Shown: positions 21,236-52,850 of the stretch, piece by piece
Layout: every line of letters begins with the position of its first letter
Numbering within the stretch: the stretch's first letter is position 1
Source: Xanthostigma xanthostigma
Lineage: Eukaryota > Arthropoda > Insecta > Raphidioptera > Raphidiidae
Direction of reading: 5' to 3'
DNA length: 64,000 bases
NCBI GenBank assembly: GCA_963575645.1
Contig: OY754469.1
Span: forward strand, 19,796,001 to 19,860,000
Notes under the pieces: model-generated
Database searches by the model: none
Told to the model about the DNA's origin: nothing
The model's input: only the letters and a program-made list of their open reading frames with translations
Position numbers and translations under genes: made by a program

Positions 21236-22561
21236 CACGCACAGGGTCAGGCGGAACGTTACGCGTTAGGAACGTTACACTTTTTCGTGCATGCAGCCGG
21301 TGTTTTATCAATTTATAAGATTGGTGATTCATCAATTTATAAGACGTTATCACGTCAAAAATATATTTTAGATTTGTTTAATCAAATTTAACTGATAAAA
21401 ATTTTGTCAAAAACATATTCTATGCCTACGGTAAAATGTCGTATTTACTTGCCGATGAAATGCCAAATTGAGATAATTATTTCCTGATTTCTTACATAAG
21501 AAGGAATATGTCTTTACATGTCAATAACTACGACTTTTCAATAGTTGGCCTTCAAAGGAGTGTGGCCTTCCATGGTCCACCCACCTTACATAGCTTTATT
21601 TGAACATCTTTAAATATGCTTAAAAATCGTGAAAAATTCGAAATTCACCAAAAACGCTTCATTTATTCACAGCAAAATCTCAAAAAATGCGACTTTCAAA
21701 GAAAATATTAAAATAATATTCATGTGGTCTCTATGGTAATTTCGCTGCTATAGATTGCCAAATCGTCACGTTATATCAAATGTCGGCTCAGAGAAAAAGG
21801 AAAGTAATAAAGTGTAAAGTGCAAATTTAAAATTTTATTTTTTAATTATTATTGATAACATCAACTACAACTGACTTGAATGTGTCTTTTCTATTAATCT
21901 ATATTTTATCAATTACATCATTCAATTATCAGTTGCAGCAGTTTGATAAAACACTGATATATAGATTTGTTTTCACCGAGTTCGTTTCGAATATGTTTAG
22001 TTGCGAGCAGCAAAAAATGTACATCCCTTACTATTATTTTGCTGAGTTTCACACAAACGGGACATGTCGCATTAAAATGTCCACTTGGAATTATCAAAAG
22101 ATATTCCAAATACTGGTGACCAATCAGACCACAGATGACAGAATCTCCTATCTTATTTTATAACTAGTACAATTTTGGTAGCTGATCTACGATTTGATTT
22201 GTGCAATAATTAATAAAATTATACTGTTTGTAAGACACGATTAGATTCGGAGAACTAGTTTGGAAATTTGGAAAACTATGCAAGAGCAGATCTGCTCGTG
22301 GGTTAATTTAATCATTTATAATTCAACCATTATTTATTGCGTACTATCATTGCCAATTCAGACGTATACCCTAGTCCGGAATATTATATCCAAGCGTTCA
22401 TTACACATATTATCGGTGACATTAAGGTAAAACTATTTATGGCACTTTTTCGACTAAATTTAATTCATTTAATTCTTCAGTAGGTACTCTATTTTTCGCT
22501 GATATGAATGTTTTACATCCACAAAAATTCTACATTTAGTTCACTCAAAGAAGCAAAAATA
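21236..22561. other. no recognisable gene
   Basis: AT-rich. The 103-aa reading at 21852-22163 and its antisense partner have no recognisable domain. The left flank of the long-TIR transposon ends in TA at 22560-22561. Confidence 0.4.
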
Positions 22562-22815
22562 GGGGAAATAATTCGTGTAAAAGCGATTTTTGGCATAGTT
22601 GTAGGGGATGGTGTCTGAAGCAACATACTCAAAGTACTGATGGATGGGGGTGGAGCTAAGGGGTGGGGGGTGGCGTTAAGGTCCCCTTTTAAAGTTTTTC
22701 TTACATATCTCGTAAACGGTGGCTCATAATAAAAAAATTTTTTTACTCAAGCAATCTACATAAAATTCTCTACAAAAAAGGTCCTGTACACTTTTTCGCT
22801 GGGATCAATATTTAA
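22562..22815 (+). repeat. left 254-bp terminal inverted repeat
   Basis: Runs from GGGGAAATAATTCG to gggatcaatatttaa. It pairs with 24957-25210 in reverse complement over its full length without gaps. It contains ggtggggggtggcgttaagg and a symmetrical aaaaaaattttttt block. Confidence 0.9.
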
Positions 22816-22886
22816 TGAGACGTGAAGGAAAGAAGATGGTCAATAATAAAATAAAGATACAGTTCTTTGAGTAGGTATGGCATGTA

Positions 22887-24143
22887 TTAAAAAAAATTCC
22901 TATTATCTTCTAAATCTAACATAATATCATCATCAACATCATCGTCGACGGTGTTTTTGATTGGGGCTCCGTTAGTGCATGAGACGGAGCATACCCCGCA
23001 AACACTGGAGCGGGCAATTCCTGCTTTCCGGCAGCCGCATCGCACCCCACACCCAGTCCTACATCGGCAAAATATGCTGATGAGTATGGAGTCAGGTGCC
23101 ACAGGATCGTTTGTTGTCACCGACTTTAGGATGCCATCGTCTCCTCTGGCTCAGCCCCATTGAGTAGGTGGTAGGGGCTTGCTGAGCCATTGTTGTATCT
23201 GTAAAAGATGTAATACGATCAACGTAAGTATTTAGCTCAAATATATATTTAATATATATTTGACAACGTCTGTGGTTAATGATACCTGTAGGTACACTCT
23301 CAACGAGTGCTGCTTCGAAGCTTCTCTGGTAGGAGGAAGAGTGGCCTGATCTGATTTCGGATTCATTGATGCTCTCAAAAAAGCTGAGTATCGTAATTTA
23401 TTTAGATTTTGTTCGTGGTTAGACGCTTTGTAAATTGCCAGAAACAGTTTCTCGCCGGCCTGTTCAATACTCTCAGGTGATGTTGAAGGCTCATTAAAAA
23501 TGTCTGAGATTTTTTGGGTCAGGTCTGGTTTATCCGTGAACAGCTTAGCAATTCCCACTTTGCTCTTTCCATGGATTGCAGTGGTGGTGTCGCATCCGGA
23601 GAAGCTGTGGAGAAGGAGAATTGTCTTGGCAAGTGGAAACTGTTGAAGTTGTCGCACTGGAAACAATTTGGTTTCCACCTTTCCACGCCCTGGTTTCATA
23701 AAGAACACGTTAATATTTGGTGGAGCCAATCCCATGAGGAGGACTATCAAGTCGACATTTTCCCCAACTATTACAACAGTTGGATGAATGGCAGCCTTAT
23801 CCAACCCGCATCTGACAATAGTACCATCAGCATCTCCTGTTGCAACAGTTGTTTCAATCCCTGCTGCTGTCATTTTCTCGATGAGGAACTGAATCAGCCT
23901 CGTTTTATTTTTTTCGTTGGCGAGTAAATGCTCCTGTTTAACAGTGATGATCGTATTTTCGTTACAGTTAATATCAACCGACGTTTTAGTCAGACCTCGT
24001 CGCTTCTGCTCTGCTCGTTTAGTGCTGTTGACATCACTGTAACCATCAAAAACCACCATACAGTTTGGACCGTAATGTTTCTGGACGTAGGTAATGTATT
24101 GATGGCAAATCGTAGAAACGTTGGAGGACGGTTTCCATTTCAT
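22887..24143 (-). pseudogene. FEN1/PIN-like nuclease-fold protein with Cys-rich C-terminus, 3' part, nonsense-mutated
   Basis: Exon A (24143-23286) encodes 286 residues; an 87-bp intron (23285-23199, GT...ACAG, phase 0) follows; exon B (23198-22887) ends at TAA. Visible motifs in exon A: VVFDGY (Asp33), GDADGTIV (Asp104, Asp106), VGENVDLIVLL (Glu128, Asp131), and SFSGCDTTTAIHGKSK (Asp185), the order of acidic motifs and the helical segment of FEN1/XPG/PIN-like nucleases. Exon B has a Cys-rich, CXC-like segment CRCRTGCGVRCGCRKAG...CGVC. In exon B an in-frame TGA (23153-23151) sits where this family, as I remember it, has Trp (after QWG). The usual VGED acid is Asn129. The N-terminal half is absent and no promoter is seen. 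ATG 24143 is probably internal; the same frame stays open upstream. This protein family is widespread but uncharacterised in animals; nuclease activity is inference. Confidence 0.75.
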
Positions 24144-24190
24144 ACTCCACGTGTGCGTCGTGATTGGTTGGCGGTGACCTTGCCGCCAGT

Positions 24191-24836
24191 GAGAGATGAT
24201 ACAAAATACTAGGAACAGTTATTTTGGGACGGGAACAGATCGGAACAGTTGTCAGTATAATAAAATACCTGTTCCGGGCTGTTCCAATGCTTCGACTGTT
24301 CTTCTGCATAAAATAAACATTCTCCGTTCCCGTTGTAAATTATTATTGTACCTACTTTGCAAACTGCAACGCTCTTCACCTACGCCTAGCGTACATTGCA
24401 CGTAAAGTCGATTTTAGTATCACACCATCACATTAACATGCGTCGCAAAGTTTCAGACAAAACTGGACGGCTTATTCATTTTATATTACATACGCGAATA
24501 ATATTGAACTGTGGTGAAATAATATTATTTGATTTTGTCATAGTATATGCATTCTGCAGAACAACTGTTACTTACATTCTGTAAAAGTATATTTGTAATA
24601 ATTAGGTACCTTAAATTATTAAACTTGAATAATAGAATTAATTCACGAAAAAATACAAATCATACACATTTCATAATTTGAAATTTTTATAAGTTGCATG
24701 TTACAAGCTATTCCGAGAATGTCAAGGTTCCAACGTTGGAACTGTTAAAAAGTAACAGGTTTTTGGAACTGTTCCGTAAGCGGAACAGGAACGGAACGGA
24801 ACTGTTATTAAAAAATAACAGATTGTACCACCTCTA
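24191..24836. mobile_element. hAT element, non-autonomous, 646 bp, perfect 8-bp target duplication
   Basis: ccgccagt occurs at 24183-24190 and again at 24837-24844. The ends are gagagatgatacaa and, inverted, tagaggtggtacaa, a hAT-type terminus. Subterminal ggaacagtt/aactgttcc words cluster at both ends, as transposase binding sites often do. There is no transposase. It splits the cargo of the long-TIR element just upstream of the surviving exon, so it arrived later. Confidence 0.85.
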
Positions 24837-24956
24837 CCGCCAGTCCCTTGCGCCCGACGACGCTACAGAAACGTGCCGTGTGCGCCAGCAGTTTGAACCA
24901 ATACGTAAAAATGCGAGAATTGAGCATATAATTAACTTTTCTTTTTTGATATCTCG

Positions 24957-25210
24957 TTAAATATTGATCCCAGCGAAAAAGTGTACAGGACCTTTTTTGT
25001 AGAGAATTTTATGTAGATTGCTTGAGTAAAAAAATTTTTTTGTTATGAGCCACCGTTTACGAGATATGTAAGAAAAACTTTAAAAGGGGACCTTAACGCC
25101 ACCCCCCACCCCTTAGCTCCACCCCCATCCATCAGTACTTTGAGTATGTTGCTTCAGACACCATCCCCTACAACTATGCCAAAAATCGCTTTTACACGAA
25201 TTATTTCCCC
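24957..25210 (-). repeat. right 254-bp terminal inverted repeat
   Basis: Reverse complement of 22562-22815 with about one substitution. It ends ...attatttcccc, then TA. Confidence 0.9.
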
Positions 25211-25967
25211 TATTTGGCAGTATTTGGTCTTCGTTGATTGAACTAATTAAAGCTGCATTTCAAAGCCGCCTTCAATGAGAAAAATAGTTGGCAAAACCAA
25301 AAGTGCACATTTCGCTGTTTTCCAAGGTTGAATATACGTAAGTAGGTACAGACCAACCGACAACTGAAGTTCGAGATTTTCAATTACAATTTTAGGATTA
25401 ATTATGAACTCGAATCAATCAAAAATTGGTCCGTTTAACAAAACAGAATCTCTCCTTTTTAGCTACAATTTAAATGGATTTCGTGCTTAATTAACCTAGA
25501 TATAACTTCTATTATGAACGAAATTCAGCTCTGACGCGCAAAGCGATAATAGAGCACATATCACTAGCAGCGTATGTGCAATGGACTCGGGGTTCCACAT
25601 TTATGCTCAGTTCCTGATATGACTTTCAGCTTTAAAAGTTGAAAACAATTAACATTCATAAATCTACAATAATATAGATAAAAATCGTATTATCGAAGGA
25701 AGATTAAAGATTCGTCTTAAAATACATTTAAACTTTGAATTTATGTGGACACAAAATAAAGTTAAAAATATTTGCTGAAGGCAGAAATCAAAAATATCCG
25801 AAATAATATTTACATATCAACATTATCGTGAATATGCAAATTCTCTTTTCCATATTTTTTTGATCTGAAGACACTATTTTACCACAAATTATTCGACTAA
25901 AAAAAGCAAAAATATTTTTTTTCATTGTTGGGAATTATAATAATCATAAAACCGTACTTGTTGTACC
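25211..25967. other. no recognisable feature
   Basis: AT-rich. 25275-25297 (aaaatagttggcaaaaccaa) repeats a word found at about 7759-7779. Confidence 0.4.
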
Positions 25968-26767: not shown

Positions 26768-27453
26768 CACTAAAACGACGGATTTAATGTTTTTGCCGCC
26801 CTAGGCACTTAAAAAATGCCGCCTTCTTTCACTCTATTCCGAAAATTCATTTTTCATGTCTCAAAACTATTTCTTTCTAAAAATGGTGCATATAATCATT
26901 AATTTAAACAAATTATACATATAATTATAATTTCTAAATTTTCATATTTTGTGTGGAAAAACATGATTTTTTGTAACACGACTTGTTACAGGCTGATATT
27001 TTTCGCCTCACTTTTCAAATTGCAAAATCATTCATTATATCGTCGGTCAAGAGACACGAAAACGTCTGCTTCTATATAGATAACAATGCAAGAGCGTTCA
27101 AGCTATTCTCGCTCATCGTGGACCTGAGGTAATTCTTAATTCGCTTCAAAACAGAAAATGACCGTTCAGCACTGCAATTCGAAATGGGAGCGCAAACCAG
27201 CATTCTATACGCAATGTCAACGTTGGTATACAAGGTTTCAAAATTATTCTCCCTCCTAAAAAAACAGTTTTCTGGGAACAGTCATGATTGTAGCACAAAG
27301 GATGCAAAAAAGGCGGCGAATAAAACAAAAAAAAATCAATGAACGGTCTATTTGTTTTTTTTTTTATCTTAGCGCGAAATTTGAAAAACATGGTTTCGAG
27401 TTGATCAAAAATTTGCCGCCCTAGGCCCGGGCTTATGCGTAAATCCGCCACTG
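26768..27453 (-). mobile_element. hAT element, internally deleted, about 690 bp
   Basis: On the minus strand it begins CAGTGGCGGATTTACGCATA and gggcctagggcggcaaa. The other end carries gcctagggcggcaaa again, near atccgtcgttttagtg. Between them is the transposase C-terminal domain (27072-27255). No convincing 8-bp target duplication, so it is old or its edges are slightly misplaced. Confidence 0.7.
27072..27255 (-). pseudogene. hAT transposase C-terminal dimerisation domain fragment
   Basis: An open frame of about 60 codons ending at TAG (27074-27072) contains ISNCSAERSFSVLKRIK and NYLRSTMSENSLNALALLSI. This is the hATC dimerisation region found at the end of hAT transposases. The N-terminal zinc finger and catalytic RNase H-like parts are deleted. 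The overlapping 101-aa reading at 27146-27451 is in another frame and is not the gene. Confidence 0.8.
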
Positions 27454-43067: not shown

Positions 43068-46000
43068 TCAATTGTTAACAGACGGAATTTTCTTCAGATG
43101 TTCAATATGAGATTTAAACATCTTTTTGGAGGATGGATCTTGAAGGATGCAGCTAACAGGACTCGTAAATTCTAAAATTACACGGGGATTACTGTAACGA
43201 GGACAAAGTTTGAGGTGAAAATTCGGTTTCATTTTGTTATAATGTAACCTTTGTACAACAAAATCGCCGACTTGCAACTTCGACTGCAACGAACGGTTTT
43301 TATTGAAATATTTCGCTTGTAGATCATGTGATTTTGACAGAGCTAGGCGAACTTGATTTTCGGAAGGCAAGGCGTCTTGTTCCCACACAGATGACAAATT
43401 CCATTGTAAATCGAGTGGAAATTTGATTTCTCTTGACAAAAATATCTTACAAGGTAAATTTTTAATACTTTCATGATATGAAGAATTATTGGCGAAGGTT
43501 ATGTGATTTAATAACAAGTCCCAACTGAGATGATCGTCAAATTTTTGTTGAAGTAAAATTGACAGAGCAGCTCTAACGTTTCGTATTACTCTTTCTACAG
43601 CATTGGACGAAGGATGATAAGGCGAACTGTGAATGACACGTGAACCCCAGGAAGTACAGAATTCATTAAACTTGTTTGACGTAAACGAAGTCGCGTTATC
43701 GGAAACTATTTTAGTCGGTGGACCATACGTGGTAAAGACTTGATGCAGACATTTTATTATCGACGTGGAACTGGAATCAGGAATCGCGTAAGTTATTAAC
43801 CACTTGCTGTAACTATCCAGAATTAGAAGAACATATTTATTCCCGGAATGTGATTTGACAAGCGGTCCCATGAGATCAATGTAAATTTTATCCCACACAG
43901 ATTGTGGAGGATTAGACGACATAACTACTTTATCAGGATGTTGATCTGATTTATGCGTTGCACAGAGCATACAATCTTTAATAAATTGACGAACCTCAAC
44001 AAACATGCGCGGCCACCAAAATCTTCGTGATATTGAACGATACGTCTTCGTGACTCCGGGATGACTGGCGATTTGTGAATTATGAAACTGTTCCAATATT
44101 TCTTTCTTGGAGGCGGACGGAACAACAATACGTCGACGACGGTTGCGGCCTACGAGTCGAACCAGGAAATTCTTGTGAATAGCGAAATTTTTCTGAGGTA
44201 AACCTTGATTAATTTGACTTTTAAGGCGGTTTAACTCAGGATCTTGATCTTGCAGGATATTAAGTTCGGTAAACGGATTTTTAATGTCCGTAATGGGATT
44301 GAGAAAATTTGATTGTATTGCATTTTTCTCAGAAGTTTCGGATTCAGCTACCAAACGGGATAAACAATCGGCAGTACAATTTACTTTACCGCGAATATGT
44401 TCGACTTTGAAACTGAAACGACTGATGCGAAGTAACCACCTACCTACACGACCTAAGTTGCGGGGGTGCTGAATTAACCATTTGAGACAGGAACTATCTG
44501 TCTGAAGAATAAAAGTTTGATGCGAGAGGTAAGATTTCATTTTTTCCATAGCCCAAATACATGCTAAAGCTTCTTGTTCGTACGTACTGTATTTCTTCTC
44601 GGCGGATGTCAAACGTCGGCTTGCGTACTGGATCGGGTGTAGACCATCTTCAAAGGATTGTAAAAGAACACAACCAACATGATTTTGACTGGCGTCGGTT
44701 TGCAGAATGAATTCGCGTTGAAAATCGGGAAAACGTAGAACTGGTGAACTTGACAGAGCTTCACGAAGTTTGCGAAAAGACTGAATATGCGTTTCCGTTA
44801 AATTATATTTGACATTTTTCTTCCGTAGATCATTGAGTGGCGACATTATCTGAGCGTATTCGGGGATAAACTTAGCGTAATAACCAACCATTCCAATAAA
44901 CGTTTGAAGCTGTTTCAAATTCTTCGGAATTGGCAAATTCTTTATCGCTTCTACTTTGTCGGGATCCATGGAAAGACCGTTGCTTGAGACACGATGACCC
45001 AGGAAGTTGAGTTCGCTTTGGGCGAATTTTATTTTATCCGGATTCACGGTAAGATTAGCTTCTTTTAGACGTCTTAACGTTTCTCGAACGTGTACCATAT
45101 GAGATTCCATATCGGGACTGTATATTAATAAGTCGTCGAAAAATACAATCACAAACTTGTATCTTAAATCGGCAAAAATGTCAAACATCAGACGGTTTAG
45201 AGCACTAGGTGAAATAGATAGCCCGAACGGAGCCTTATGAAATTTCCACTGGCCTTCAGGTGTGACGAACGAAGTTAGACTCTTTGATTTGTCAGATAAT
45301 TCAACTTGGTAAAAAGCGCTGTTTAAATCCAACGTGGTGAAAACTTTAGCGTTTTTTAAGCACTGGAAAATATGCTCAATCGACGGAACAGGAAAACTAT
45401 CCATGACAACCTTTTTGTTTAACTGGCGATAATCAATACAAAGTCTATAACCTCCACTTGATTTCTTGACAAGAAAAGCCGGTGAAGCGTAAGGGGATTT
45501 ACTAGGTGAAATAACGCCTTTATTCAAAAGATCACTAATATGTTCCCTCATTATTTTAGCTTGAGGTGGGGAAAGTGGATACGGGGCCTTTCGGACTGGA
45601 ATATCGTCAGACAAATGAATTGAATATTTGTAATTTTTAGCTTGACCTAGTTCTTCGGTAAGAACTTCTGGAAATTCTGCAAGCAAACTACTAAAGTTGG
45701 CCGCATTTGAATCTATACTGGTAACGTGATCCAGGGAGAAGGTTTTGGACGAAGCGGGTAACGGTACAAAGGGAATGACGTGAGAGGAATCGAATTTGAA
45801 AGAAAGATTATTCTCGGTACAATTAACGTTCGCACCCATTTTGCATAAAGAATCATAACCTATTATGACGGGATACGACAGAGCGTCGAGAACTAGGAAA
45901 TCAATCTTCCAGGTAAATTTACTAATAGTAATGACTACTGTTAACGTGAAATTAGATCTAGCGATAGTACTGTTGGCTACTTGGGCATAAGAAATCGAAT

Positions 46001-46337
46001 TTGTGATCGTACCTATTTTTAACGATGACAAATAATTAGCAAGTTCGGAATTGATGTAGTTCTTGGTAGAACCGGTATCAAGCAGTGCCGAAGCTCGAAT
46101 ATGTTGAAAGTAGAGATAAACTAGAGGGATCGTAGAGCTACTTGATTGACTTGGGGAATTATAGGAATAATTCGGGACGGGAGAAGTCAATCGAATAGAC
46201 GTATTTACAGGAGAGGACAAGTTAGCTGGAGGGGGGTGGTTTGAAAGGGGTGACTTATTAACTAATGTGGTTAACCGGGGAAAGACATTAATTTGTTCTA
46301 CATCTTTCGGTTTACTAAAAATTTTGACAACGCTATC
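43068..46337 (-). CDS. pol polyprotein (protease, RT, RNase H, integrase), Ty3/gypsy
   Basis: Makes the enzymes that copy element RNA to DNA and integrate it. Counting from the TTG at 46220: protease ALLDTGSTKNYI (Asp48), RT motifs TLDLNSAFYQV (Asp298) and VFFDDLLIYS (Asp362-363), RNase H with QTDASQNHVGC, a chromo-less integrase with an HHCC finger (H-x-H ... CMLCATHK), and a D,D,E core visible as YIDLMGP, SDNATSF and HPSSNAVERV. The frame is open back to the gag TGA at 46340-46338 and has no ATG before residue 128, past the protease. Expression as a gag fusion by TGA readthrough is therefore the simplest reading. FDD in place of the usual YxDD and the SISPSALNRLM motif place it in a divergent gypsy clade, which I do not name. 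Confidence 0.93.
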   Translation of the reverse strand, partial: DSVVKIFSKPKDVEQINVFPRLTTLVNKSPLSNHPPPANLSSPVNTSIRLTSPVPNYSYNSPSQSSSSTIPLVYLYFQHIRASALLDTGSTKNYINSELANYLSSLKIGTITNSISYAQVANSTIARSNFTLTVVITISKFTWKIDFLVLDALSYPVIIGYDSLCKMGANVNCTENNLSFKFDSSHVIPFVPLPASSKTFSLDHVTSIDSNAANFSSLLAEFPEVLTEELGQAKNYKYSIHLSDDIPVRKAPYPLSPPQAKIMREHISDLLNKGVISPSKSPYASPAFLVKKSSGGYRLCIDYRQLNKKVVMDSFPVPSIEHIFQCLKNAKVFTTLDLNSAFYQVELSDKSKSLTSFVTPEGQWKFHKAPFGLSISPSALNRLMFDIFADLRYKFVIVFFDDLLIYSPDMESHMVHVRETLRRLKEANLTVNPDKIKFAQSELNFLGHRVSSNGLSMDPDKVEAIKNLPIPKNLKQLQTFIGMVGYYAKFIPEYAQIMSPLNDLRKKNVKYNLTETHIQSFRKLREALSSSPVLRFPDFQREFILQTDASQNHVGCVLLQSFEDGLHPIQYASRRLTSAEKKYSTYEQEALACIWAMEKMKSYLSHQTFILQTDSSCLKWLIQHPRNLGRVGRWLLRISRFSFKVEHIRGKVNCTADCLSRLVAESETSEKNAIQSNFLNPITDIKNPFTELNILQDQDPELNRLKSQINQGLPQKNFAIHKNFLVRLVGRNRRRRIVVPSASKKEILEQFHNSQIASHPGVTKTYRSISRRFWWPRMFVEVRQFIKDCMLCATHKSDQHPDKVVMSSNPPQSVWDKIYIDLMGPLVKSHSGNKYVLLILDSYSKWLITYAIPDSSSTSIIKCLHQVFTTYGPPTKIVSDNATSFTSNKFNEFCTSWGSRVIHSSPYHPSSNAVERVIRNVRAALSILLQQKFDDHLSWDLLLNHITFANNSSYHESIKNLPCKIFLSREIKFPLDLQWNLSSVWEQDALPSENQVRLALSKSHDLQAKYFNKNRSLQSKLQVGDFVVQRLHYNKMKPNFHLKLCPRYSNPRVILEFTSPVSCILQDPSSKKMFKSHIEHLKKIPSVNN

Positions 46338-47201
46338 TCACCCTTGAGAGGGCAGGATAGCCTTAGGTTCAGAAGGAGAAGGACGTGGGGGACGAACCGG
46401 ACACTGGGCTATAAAGTGACCTGGTTGTTTACAATATCGGCAACAAGGGGAAAAATTAGGAGCGACAAGTCCGGTCGAATTGGGGTGAGTGTACGTTTTA
46501 CGTTGACGTTCAACTACTCTCAAATGTTTTATAAGCTGGTGAAGCTCAGCTAAACAAGTTGGGGTATCTCTGAATTGTAGATAATTAAATGTGAATTCGT
46601 TTTGGTTAAGCCAAATGCGCGCAATTATCTCCGATTCAGACAGGCTAGGACCCAATAATTCGACGTATTTCAAGACGTCTTCAGCATATTCGGGAAAATT
46701 CTCAGAGAGGTTCTGACGCCTACTGATATAGCGTTCTATTAGCATAGCCCGATCTATAGAAGTGGTGAAATGGTCTAGAATAAGATTTTTGAGCTGTGTC
46801 CATTCGAGTTCAGAATAGACATTAAGTCTCCACCACTGTCGGAGGGGTCCGTCAGTCTTAGTGCCTAAACTCTTTAACAAAATATGAAATGGAACTAAAG
46901 CGAATTGACTCACGTTCTCGATTTCTAACAGGAATTGTATCAAAATGTCAAGATCTGTACCTGTAGCGGTAGGTACGTTACGCAACAAGTCCCGGATATC
47001 GCCCATATTTGCATGCGAAGCGGTATGATTTGGAACGGAAATAAGAATTGGCTCGGACTTACTCGGTGAGTGCACTGGAGGATCGTCCATCGCCGGCGGA
47101 GAGTCTGGAAGTTCAGCGGTGGTCGGAGGCGGACCTGGAGATTTGCTTTGGCCGGGTGTCGGCGGAGACTTTGGGCTGCGGCAGGACTTATGGCGCGGCA
47201 T
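46338..47201 (-). CDS. gag polyprotein, Ty3/gypsy
   Basis: 287 residues starting at ATG 47201, 67 bp after the primer-binding site. The structural protein forms the particle that packages element RNA. Residues 1-50 are Pro/Ser-rich. A capsid-like gag domain follows (QWWRLNVYSELEW, then LILDHFTT and a helix-rich stretch to about 230). A single CCHC zinc knuckle, CRYCKQPGHFIAQC, is at about 254-267, with a Pro-rich tail. The frame ends at TGA (46340-46338); pol continues in the same frame with no further stop. The plus-strand readings over this region are shadows. Confidence 0.92.
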   Translation of the reverse strand: MPRHKSCRSPKSPPTPGQSKSPGPPPTTAELPDSPPAMDDPPVHSPSKSEPILISVPNHTASHANMGDIRDLLRNVPTATGTDLDILIQFLLEIENVSQFALVPFHILLKSLGTKTDGPLRQWWRLNVYSELEWTQLKNLILDHFTTSIDRAMLIERYISRRQNLSENFPEYAEDVLKYVELLGPSLSESEIIARIWLNQNEFTFNYLQFRDTPTCLAELHQLIKHLRVVERQRKTYTHPNSTGLVAPNFSPCCRYCKQPGHFIAQCPVRPPRPSPSEPKAILPSQG

Positions 47202-47248
47202 GGTCGACTGGAAGACGTGGAATCGGACAGGAACAGGACTCAGGAATT

Positions 47249-50560: not shown

Positions 50561-50774
50561 AAAAAAACTTGGTGATGAGATACTGTTTTAATAACTTGAA
50601 TATTAAAATAACAGTTGTGTGACTAAATTAATAAGTGAGCGACTAAATTACTAAGTGAGCGACTGAATTACTAAGTGAGCGACAAGAATGCCTTCGGTAA
50701 TTTTGAAGCAAATATCTTCAACCGATTGAGATGAAAATTTGTATACACGTTAAGTTTGGATAACAATGCATGGT
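50561..50774 (+). repeat. short tandem repeat before the satellite
   Basis: aagtgagcgactaaattact repeats four times (50612-50682) with a period of about 22 bp. It is followed by cttcaaccgattgagatgaa, a typical insect-repeat lead-in to the satellite. Confidence 0.6.
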
Positions 50775-52850
50775 TAGCTATGTGACGTCACTCTAAATCC
50801 AATATGGCGAACTTCTAAATATGGCGGACTAATTTTATTATGCTTTCCTACAATATGGGTATCAAATGAAAGGGCTTGCTGAGAATAACTCGAAAAATAA
50901 AGTGACGTTACTCTAAATCCAATATGGCGGACTTCTAAAAATGGCGTACTAATTTTATTATGCTTTCCTACAATATGGGTATCAAATGAAAGGGCTTGCT
51001 GAGAATAACTCGAAAAATAAAGTGACGTCACTCTAAATCCAATATGGCGGACTTCTAAAAATGGCGTACTAATTTTATTATGCTTTCCTACAATATGGGT
51101 ATCAAATGAAAGGGCTTGCTGAGAATAACTCGAAAAATAAAGTGACGTTACTCTAAATCCAATATGGCAGACTTCTAATGATGGCGGACTAAGTTTTATA
51201 TGCTTTCCTACAATATGGGTATCAAATGAAAGGGCTTGCTGTAAATAACTCGAAACATAAAGTGACGTCACTCTAAATCCAATATGGCGGACTTCTAAAG
51301 ATGGCGGACTAATTTTATTATGCTTTCCTACAATATGGGTATCAAATGAAAGGGCTTGCTGTAAATAACTCGAAAAATAAAGTGACGTCACTGAAATCCA
51401 ATATGGCGGACTTCTAAAGATAGCGGACTAATATTATTATGCTTTCCTACAATATGGGTATCAAATGAAAGGGCTTGCTGAGAATAACTCGAAAAATAAA
51501 GTGACGTTACTCTAAATCCAATATGGCGGACTTCTAAAAATGGCGGACTAAGTTTTTTGTTTTCCTACAATATGGGTATCAAATGAAAGGGCTTGCTGAG
51601 AATAACTCGAAAAATAAAGTGACGTCACTCTAAAACCAATATGGCGAAATTCTAAAGATGGCGGACTAAGTTTTTTATGCTTTCCTACAATATGGGTATC
51701 AAATGAAAGGGCTTGCTGTAAATAACTCGAAAAATAAAGTGAGGTCACTCTAAATCCAATATGGCGGACTTCTAAAGATGGCGGACCAAGTTTATAATGC
51801 TTTCCTACAATATGGGTATCAAATGAAAGGGATTGCTGAGAATAACTCGAAAAATAAAGTGACGTTACTCTAAATCCAATATGGCGAACTTCTAAAAATG
51901 GCGGACTAAGTTTTTATGCTTTCCTACAATATGGGTATCAAATGAAAGGGCTTGCTGTAAATGATTCGAAAAATAAAGTGAGGTCACTCTAAATCCAATA
52001 TGGCGGACTTCTAAAGATGGCGGACCAAGTTTATTATGCTTTCCTACAATATGGGTATCAAATGAAAGGGCTTGCTGAGAATAACTCGAAAAATAAAGTG
52101 ACGTCACTCTAAATCCAATATGGCGGACTTCTAAAAATGGCGTACTAATTTTATTATGCTTTCCTACAATATGGGTATCAAATGAAAGGGCTTGCTGAGA
52201 ATAACTCGAAAAATAAAGTGACGTAACTCTGAATCCAACATGGCGTAGGTACTTCTAAAGATGGCGGACTAAGTTTTTTATGCTTTCCTACAATATGGGT
52301 ATCAAATGAAAGGGCTTGCTGTAAATAACTCGAAAAATAAAGTGAGGTCACTCTAAATCCAATATGGCGGACTTCTAAAGATGGCGGACTAATTTTATTA
52401 TGCTTTCCTACAATATGGGTATCAAATGAAAGGGCTTGCTGAGAATAACTCGAAAAATAAAGTGACGTTACTCTAAATCCAATATGGCGGACTTCTAAAA
52501 TGGCGGACTAATTTTATTTTGCTTTCCTACAATATGGGTATCAAATGAAAGGGCTTGCTGAAAATACCTCGAAAAATAAAGTGACGTCACTCTAAATCCA
52601 ATATGGCGGATTTCTAAAGATGGCGGACTAATTTTATTATGCTTTCCTACAATATGGGTATCAAATGAAAGGGCTTGCTGTAAATAACTCGAAAAATAAA
52701 GTGACGTCACTGAAATCCAATATGGCGGACTTCTAATAATGGCGGCTTAAGTTTTTTATGACAATATGGGTATCAAATGAAAGGGCTTGCTGAGAATAAC
52801 TCGAAAAATAAAGTGACGTTACTCTAAATTCAATATGGCGGACTAAGCTT
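50775..52850. repeat. 120-bp satellite, about 18 monomers
   Basis: Each unit contains gtgacgtcactctaaatcc, aatatggcggacttctaaa, atggcggactaa, tatgctttcctacaatatgg and gtatcaaatgaaagggcttg. The period is 120 bp, a multiple of 3, so stop-free minus-strand frames of 66-205 aa run through blocks of monomers; these are repeat artefacts. Units vary mainly at the gtgac(g/g)t(c/t/a)ac site (GACGTCAC, GACGTTAC, GAGGTCAC). Confidence 0.95.

Follow-up and report, generated by a model that had tools for sequence, protein, structure and literature searches.

A probable internal-deletion derivative of an Academ-like DNA transposon, with a remnant of a FEN1-like nuclease gene, in Xanthostigma xanthostigma

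Does a FEN1-like nuclease gene lying between two long inverted repeats belong to a transposon, and if so, to which kind? The question is raised by a stretch of 64,000 nucleotides from Xanthostigma xanthostigma (contig OY754469.1, positions 19,796,001 to 19,860,000; hereafter the window, whose own numbering is used), in which an earlier note, made from the letters alone, had proposed a transposon of an undescribed superfamily carrying such a gene. The element, at 22537..25245, shares its ends with near-identical copies elsewhere in the genome, has terminal inverted repeats of about 284 and 294 bp and a 3-bp target duplication, and has a 5.6-kb relative whose frame is open over 1449 residues. 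It is very probably a young, non-autonomous internal-deletion derivative of a cut-and-paste DNA transposon of the Academ-like (AcademX) type.

Ends, copies and target duplications

The ungapped part of the inverted repeat extends over 264 nt with 2 mismatches (22557-22820 / 24952-25215), so that the long ungapped repeat described earlier stands and its extent (254 bp, about one mismatch) is revised. The 35 bases inward from the GGGG first taken as the element end occur exactly twice in the window (shuffled mean 0.00, 100 shuffles). Searching the source genome (623 Mb, 28 contigs) with the repeat gave 40 scored matches among 134 first-look candidates, 98-100% identical and by position corresponding to 32 elements, which refutes the possibility that the repeats occur only at this locus. 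For 21 of these elements, that of the window included, both ends were read, and for the other 11 one end.

Outside GGGG, all 20 other copies with both ends read agree with the window base for base or nearly so, and homology among copies ends near 22537 and 25245; the TA previously placed outside both ends therefore lies inside the terminal repeat, and GGGG is not the element end. Matching to the fetched copies defines a whole element of 2709 bp (minus strand, that of its gene), and repeat alignment gives a left terminal inverted repeat at the gene's 3′ end (22537..22820, about 284 bp) and a right one at its 5′ end (24952..25245, about 294 bp), the latter with 10 extra bases located about 17 to 31 bp from the end. 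The element sequence is TAG(T/C)TCACTCAAAG...TTGATTGAACTA, with small variants in copies L044 and L048, and the precise termini TAG(T/C)TCA...TGAACTA are shared. Comparison of the flanks showed that the duplications are 3 bp in 19 of 21 copies, 4 bp (TATA) in L044 and absent in L039; they are varied 3-mers across copies, that of the window being ATT (22534..22536 and 25246..25248). When flanks were paired at random (10,000 shuffles), the mean was 2.0 and the maximum 8 of 21. TA as the target duplication is thus ruled out, being internal to the repeat, with a duplication of 3 bp.

Sixteen of the 20 fetched copies read at both ends match end to end with a length of 2697-2746 bp, two (L033 and L039) match the element but contain additional insertions, and in two (L034 and L038) part of the element is duplicated in inverted orientation, with both outer ends kept and 3-bp target duplications (ACA, AAA). 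Among the copies read at one end, the left element end was matched in DNA in 11 of 11 and the 3′ part of the gene was found by tblastn in 10 of 11, the exception being L058, which has an internal duplication. Pairwise divergence is 0.1-2.1% among 19 copies (L034 and L038 left out), indicating that the family moved recently. The joined flanks of the 21 copies were compared with the window and the fetched loci only, and an empty site was found for 1 of 21: the left flank of L044 contains a paralogous stretch identical at 98 of 111 columns across the joined junction, with a single TATA, which looks as expected of an empty site. The comparison of filled and empty sites that the earlier note had called for thus agrees with the duplication, at one copy. 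The view of the locus as a long-repeat DNA transposon is supported by the copies, their shared ends and their duplications.

The gene remnant and its full-length relatives

As had been noted, the 3′ part of a gene lies on the minus strand between the repeats, as a 328-codon open stretch with VVFDGY, GDAD, VGENVD and GCDTT motifs followed, after a putative intron, by a Cys-rich exon. The exon 1 remnant (23286..24143) corresponds to residues ~1063-1348 of the full-length protein and to its FEN1/XPG-like nuclease; the exon 2 remnant (22887..23198) contains the CXC-like Cys cluster and an acidic tail. The exons are separated by the putative 87-bp intron (23199-23285) and joined in the same way as in database protein P0003. 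Together the coding remnant matches residues ~1063-1446 of P0116, a Parnassius mnemosyne form that is 1446 residues long and has 14 member sequences. Translation against the other copies revealed an in-frame TGA in the WGW motif (23151..23153) that is present in the window copy only (1 of the 17 copies readable there, of 21). Homology to protein P0059 begins at residue 1063 in all 21 copies read at both ends, which indicates that one deletion founded the family. In these derivative copies the nuclease remnant lacks the first Asp motif, coding homology starting past it, and the GEDVD motif of the relatives reads GENVD in 20 of 21 and GKNVD in one. Protein comparison showed that the DDE part is absent from the window copy.

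Upstream of the remnant, 24858..25245 still matches the full-length element on C5 described below, at its 5′ end (94% in DNA comparison), and 24144..24857, in which no homology to the full-length protein was detected, stands in place of the missing 5′ untranslated region and the first ~1062 codons. Within the latter, 24212-24830 is a GGAACAGTT-rich stretch, apparently another inserted element, that falls in the block common to the 16 end-to-end copies.

A protein query on the source genome gave 34 scored matches among 518 candidates, of which 26 belong to the derivative (covering query residues 1062-1359 or 1062-1364) and 8 are other loci. The C5 match extends at 85% from residue 1 to residue 1351 of the 1367, and its frame, open over 1449 residues, continues without a break through the position of the derivative's intron. 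It lies in an element of 5631 bp (19370590-19376220) with 265-bp repeats that are 99.2% identical, and the end regions of this element are 93-94% identical to those of the derivative. Two diverged matches (39% identical), whose frames are open over 1463 and 1521 residues, lie in the C10 element (449-bp repeats, 96.4%; ends TAGTACAGTCAATC; duplication GAG) and the C4 element (repeats of ~1.05 kb, 98%; ends TAGTGCAGGC; duplication CAT). The C8 relative has a frame with one stop and repeats of ~815 bp. All four loci with fetched flanks (of 8) therefore lie inside long inverted repeats. The complete protein is thus encoded in a larger element with matching repeats, the outcome in which other copies carry an unrelated transposase did not occur, and the conclusion that the FEN1-like gene belongs to the transposon itself and was not captured by chance is supported, as is the earlier suggestion that proteins of this kind are multi-copy owing to transposition.

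Searches with the window fragment and with a composite query returned 56 proteins (including one from Cydia pomonella with 92% identity across 60% of the query) and 64 proteins, respectively, and a search with residues 350-1060 of P0059 returned 236 proteins at E <= 0.001 among 7990 scored candidates, of which 120 are listed. Full-length forms from insects and from the soft coral Dendronephthya gigantea, many of them 1350-1550 residues long, are among the matches listed. The predicted fold of the relative P0111 matches DDE transposases, with the P element as best match, and D-D-E is conserved in the relatives, which are also predicted to have a FEN1/XPG-like fold with its acidic active-site residues. 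By prediction, then, a P-element/hAT/RAG-like DDE core and a FEN1/EXO1/XPG-like nuclease are combined in the relatives of the C5 protein. What had been called a nuclease-like protein does have a FEN1-like domain; it is not a nuclease alone, being a predicted DDE transposase whose C-terminal part is a FEN1/XPG-like domain. In the matches listed, identity of FEN1, EXO1 and XPG to the relatives is 10-15%, and FEN1 carries two Glu where this family has Asp-Ala-Asp.

A Pfam scan of 10 proteins gave below-cut-off matches only, and the protein database's own table names PF20231 (DUF6589, unknown function) for P0163, P0187, P0194, P0204 and P0115. Sequence search of solved structures gave nothing significant (EXO1, E 0.19; 5′-3′ exonuclease, E 0.44), and with P0057 it returned unrelated chains only. 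No relative was found in viral contigs (two protein scans and one DNA-pattern scan) or, in two scans, in prokaryote genome contigs, and there was no phage match. P0114 and P0115 form a very distant branch (19-21% identical) in which the order of domains looks similar by eye, and the candidate DDE positions of P0114 are occupied by D, D and E.

Relation to known transposons

The nuclease of AcademX is called XPG, and the present family likewise encodes a FEN1/XPG-like domain with its transposase. According to PMC10045372, the AcademX lineage of the Academ superfamily (Kojima) encodes a nuclease and makes target duplications of 3 or 4 bp, AcademH makes 9 or 10 bp, and duplication size is tied to the encoded nuclease or helicase; PMC5199201 gives 3 bp for Academ. 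Duplications of 3 or 4 bp were found in 20 of the 21 derivative copies and in the C10 and C4 elements. The DDD/E transposase of Academ has its predicted counterpart in the relatives, whereas the window copy, a derivative of 2.7 kb, lacks it, and the 5631 bp of the C5 element agree with the 5565 bp that PMC10294476 gives as the average for Academ in a bivalve library. These described traits and the length match make AcademX/Academ membership likely, an assignment set by description rather than by sequence alignment.

A complication is that the C5 element shows no 3- or 4-bp duplication, its right end lacking the last 2-3 bp and its flanks having a 68-bp exact direct duplication instead (one base may belong to the end). 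The P-element fold match, the likeness to Academ being one of described traits, and the lack of any family name other than PF20231, given for a few relatives, would favour an undescribed superfamily related to P/hAT-type DDE transposases and equipped with a FEN1-like nuclease. An undescribed superfamily, as the earlier note proposed, is nevertheless unlikely, as AcademX is described with both the nuclease and the 3-4 bp duplications and the element length agrees with Academ. Compared with P-element transposase, hAT Hermes and Transib/RAG1, the present proteins have extra FEN1-like and CXC-like domains, and the 7-8 bp duplications of the P superfamily (PMC5199201) differ from the 3 bp found here.

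Chance acquisition of a host FEN1-like gene fragment by an unrelated element of the Tc1/mariner type, which targets TA, would account for the TA adjoining the repeat as first drawn and for the window gene being a mere fragment. The duplication of Tc1/mariner is TA according to PMC5199201, whereas varied 3-mers were found here with TA inside the repeat; the 3-bp duplications and the full-length gene in an element with matching repeats, alongside two diverged relatives in inverted-repeat elements, rule out this origin. Segmental or palindromic duplication instead of transposition could be read from the inverted duplications L034 and L038 and from the 68-bp flank duplication at the C5 copy, and is exceedingly improbable, since in 20 of 21 copies the flanks differ and show 3- or 4-bp duplications next to the same element ends, and one paralogous empty site is consistent with transposition. 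At the C5 copy (L062 / L063), the 68-bp duplication and clipped end represent an unusual insertion or repair event.

For an Academ-like derivative, the full-length protein would come from another place in the genome, at present or up to the recent past, and would bind the derivative's repeats and move it in trans. The DDE core would link the 3′ ends to the target strands at positions 3 bp apart; processing of the other strand or of a flap at the transposon ends is the leading, still tentative, role for the FEN1-like domain, and the retained gene fragment would be passenger sequence. A more elaborate scheme appears doubtful: a P-like DDE core and a FEN1-like flap nuclease in one chain, the nuclease cutting the second strand or flap at excision, and a non-autonomous lineage that succeeded although all it carries is a damaged part of the nuclease, which might act as a dominant-negative regulator of the parent element. 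The family gives a transposase identity to a large set of animal proteins called uncharacterised or 'Tesmin/TSO1-like CXC domain-containing', and a genome with both open full-length frames and many derivatives offers material in which the role of the FEN1-like domain in DDE transposition can be tested.

Other features of the window

Elsewhere in the window, the minus strand at 43068-47246 carries a nearly uninterrupted pair of frames like those of a long-terminal-repeat retrotransposon, with a gag of 302 codons that has a CCHC motif and a pol of 1089 codons, the latter with protease, reverse transcriptase, RNase H and integrase motifs by eye. Also judged by eye, and on the same strand, a short frame at 27072-27281 resembles the C-terminal part of a hAT transposase, and a 217-codon open frame at 50774-51427 consists of repeated units of ~40 residues.
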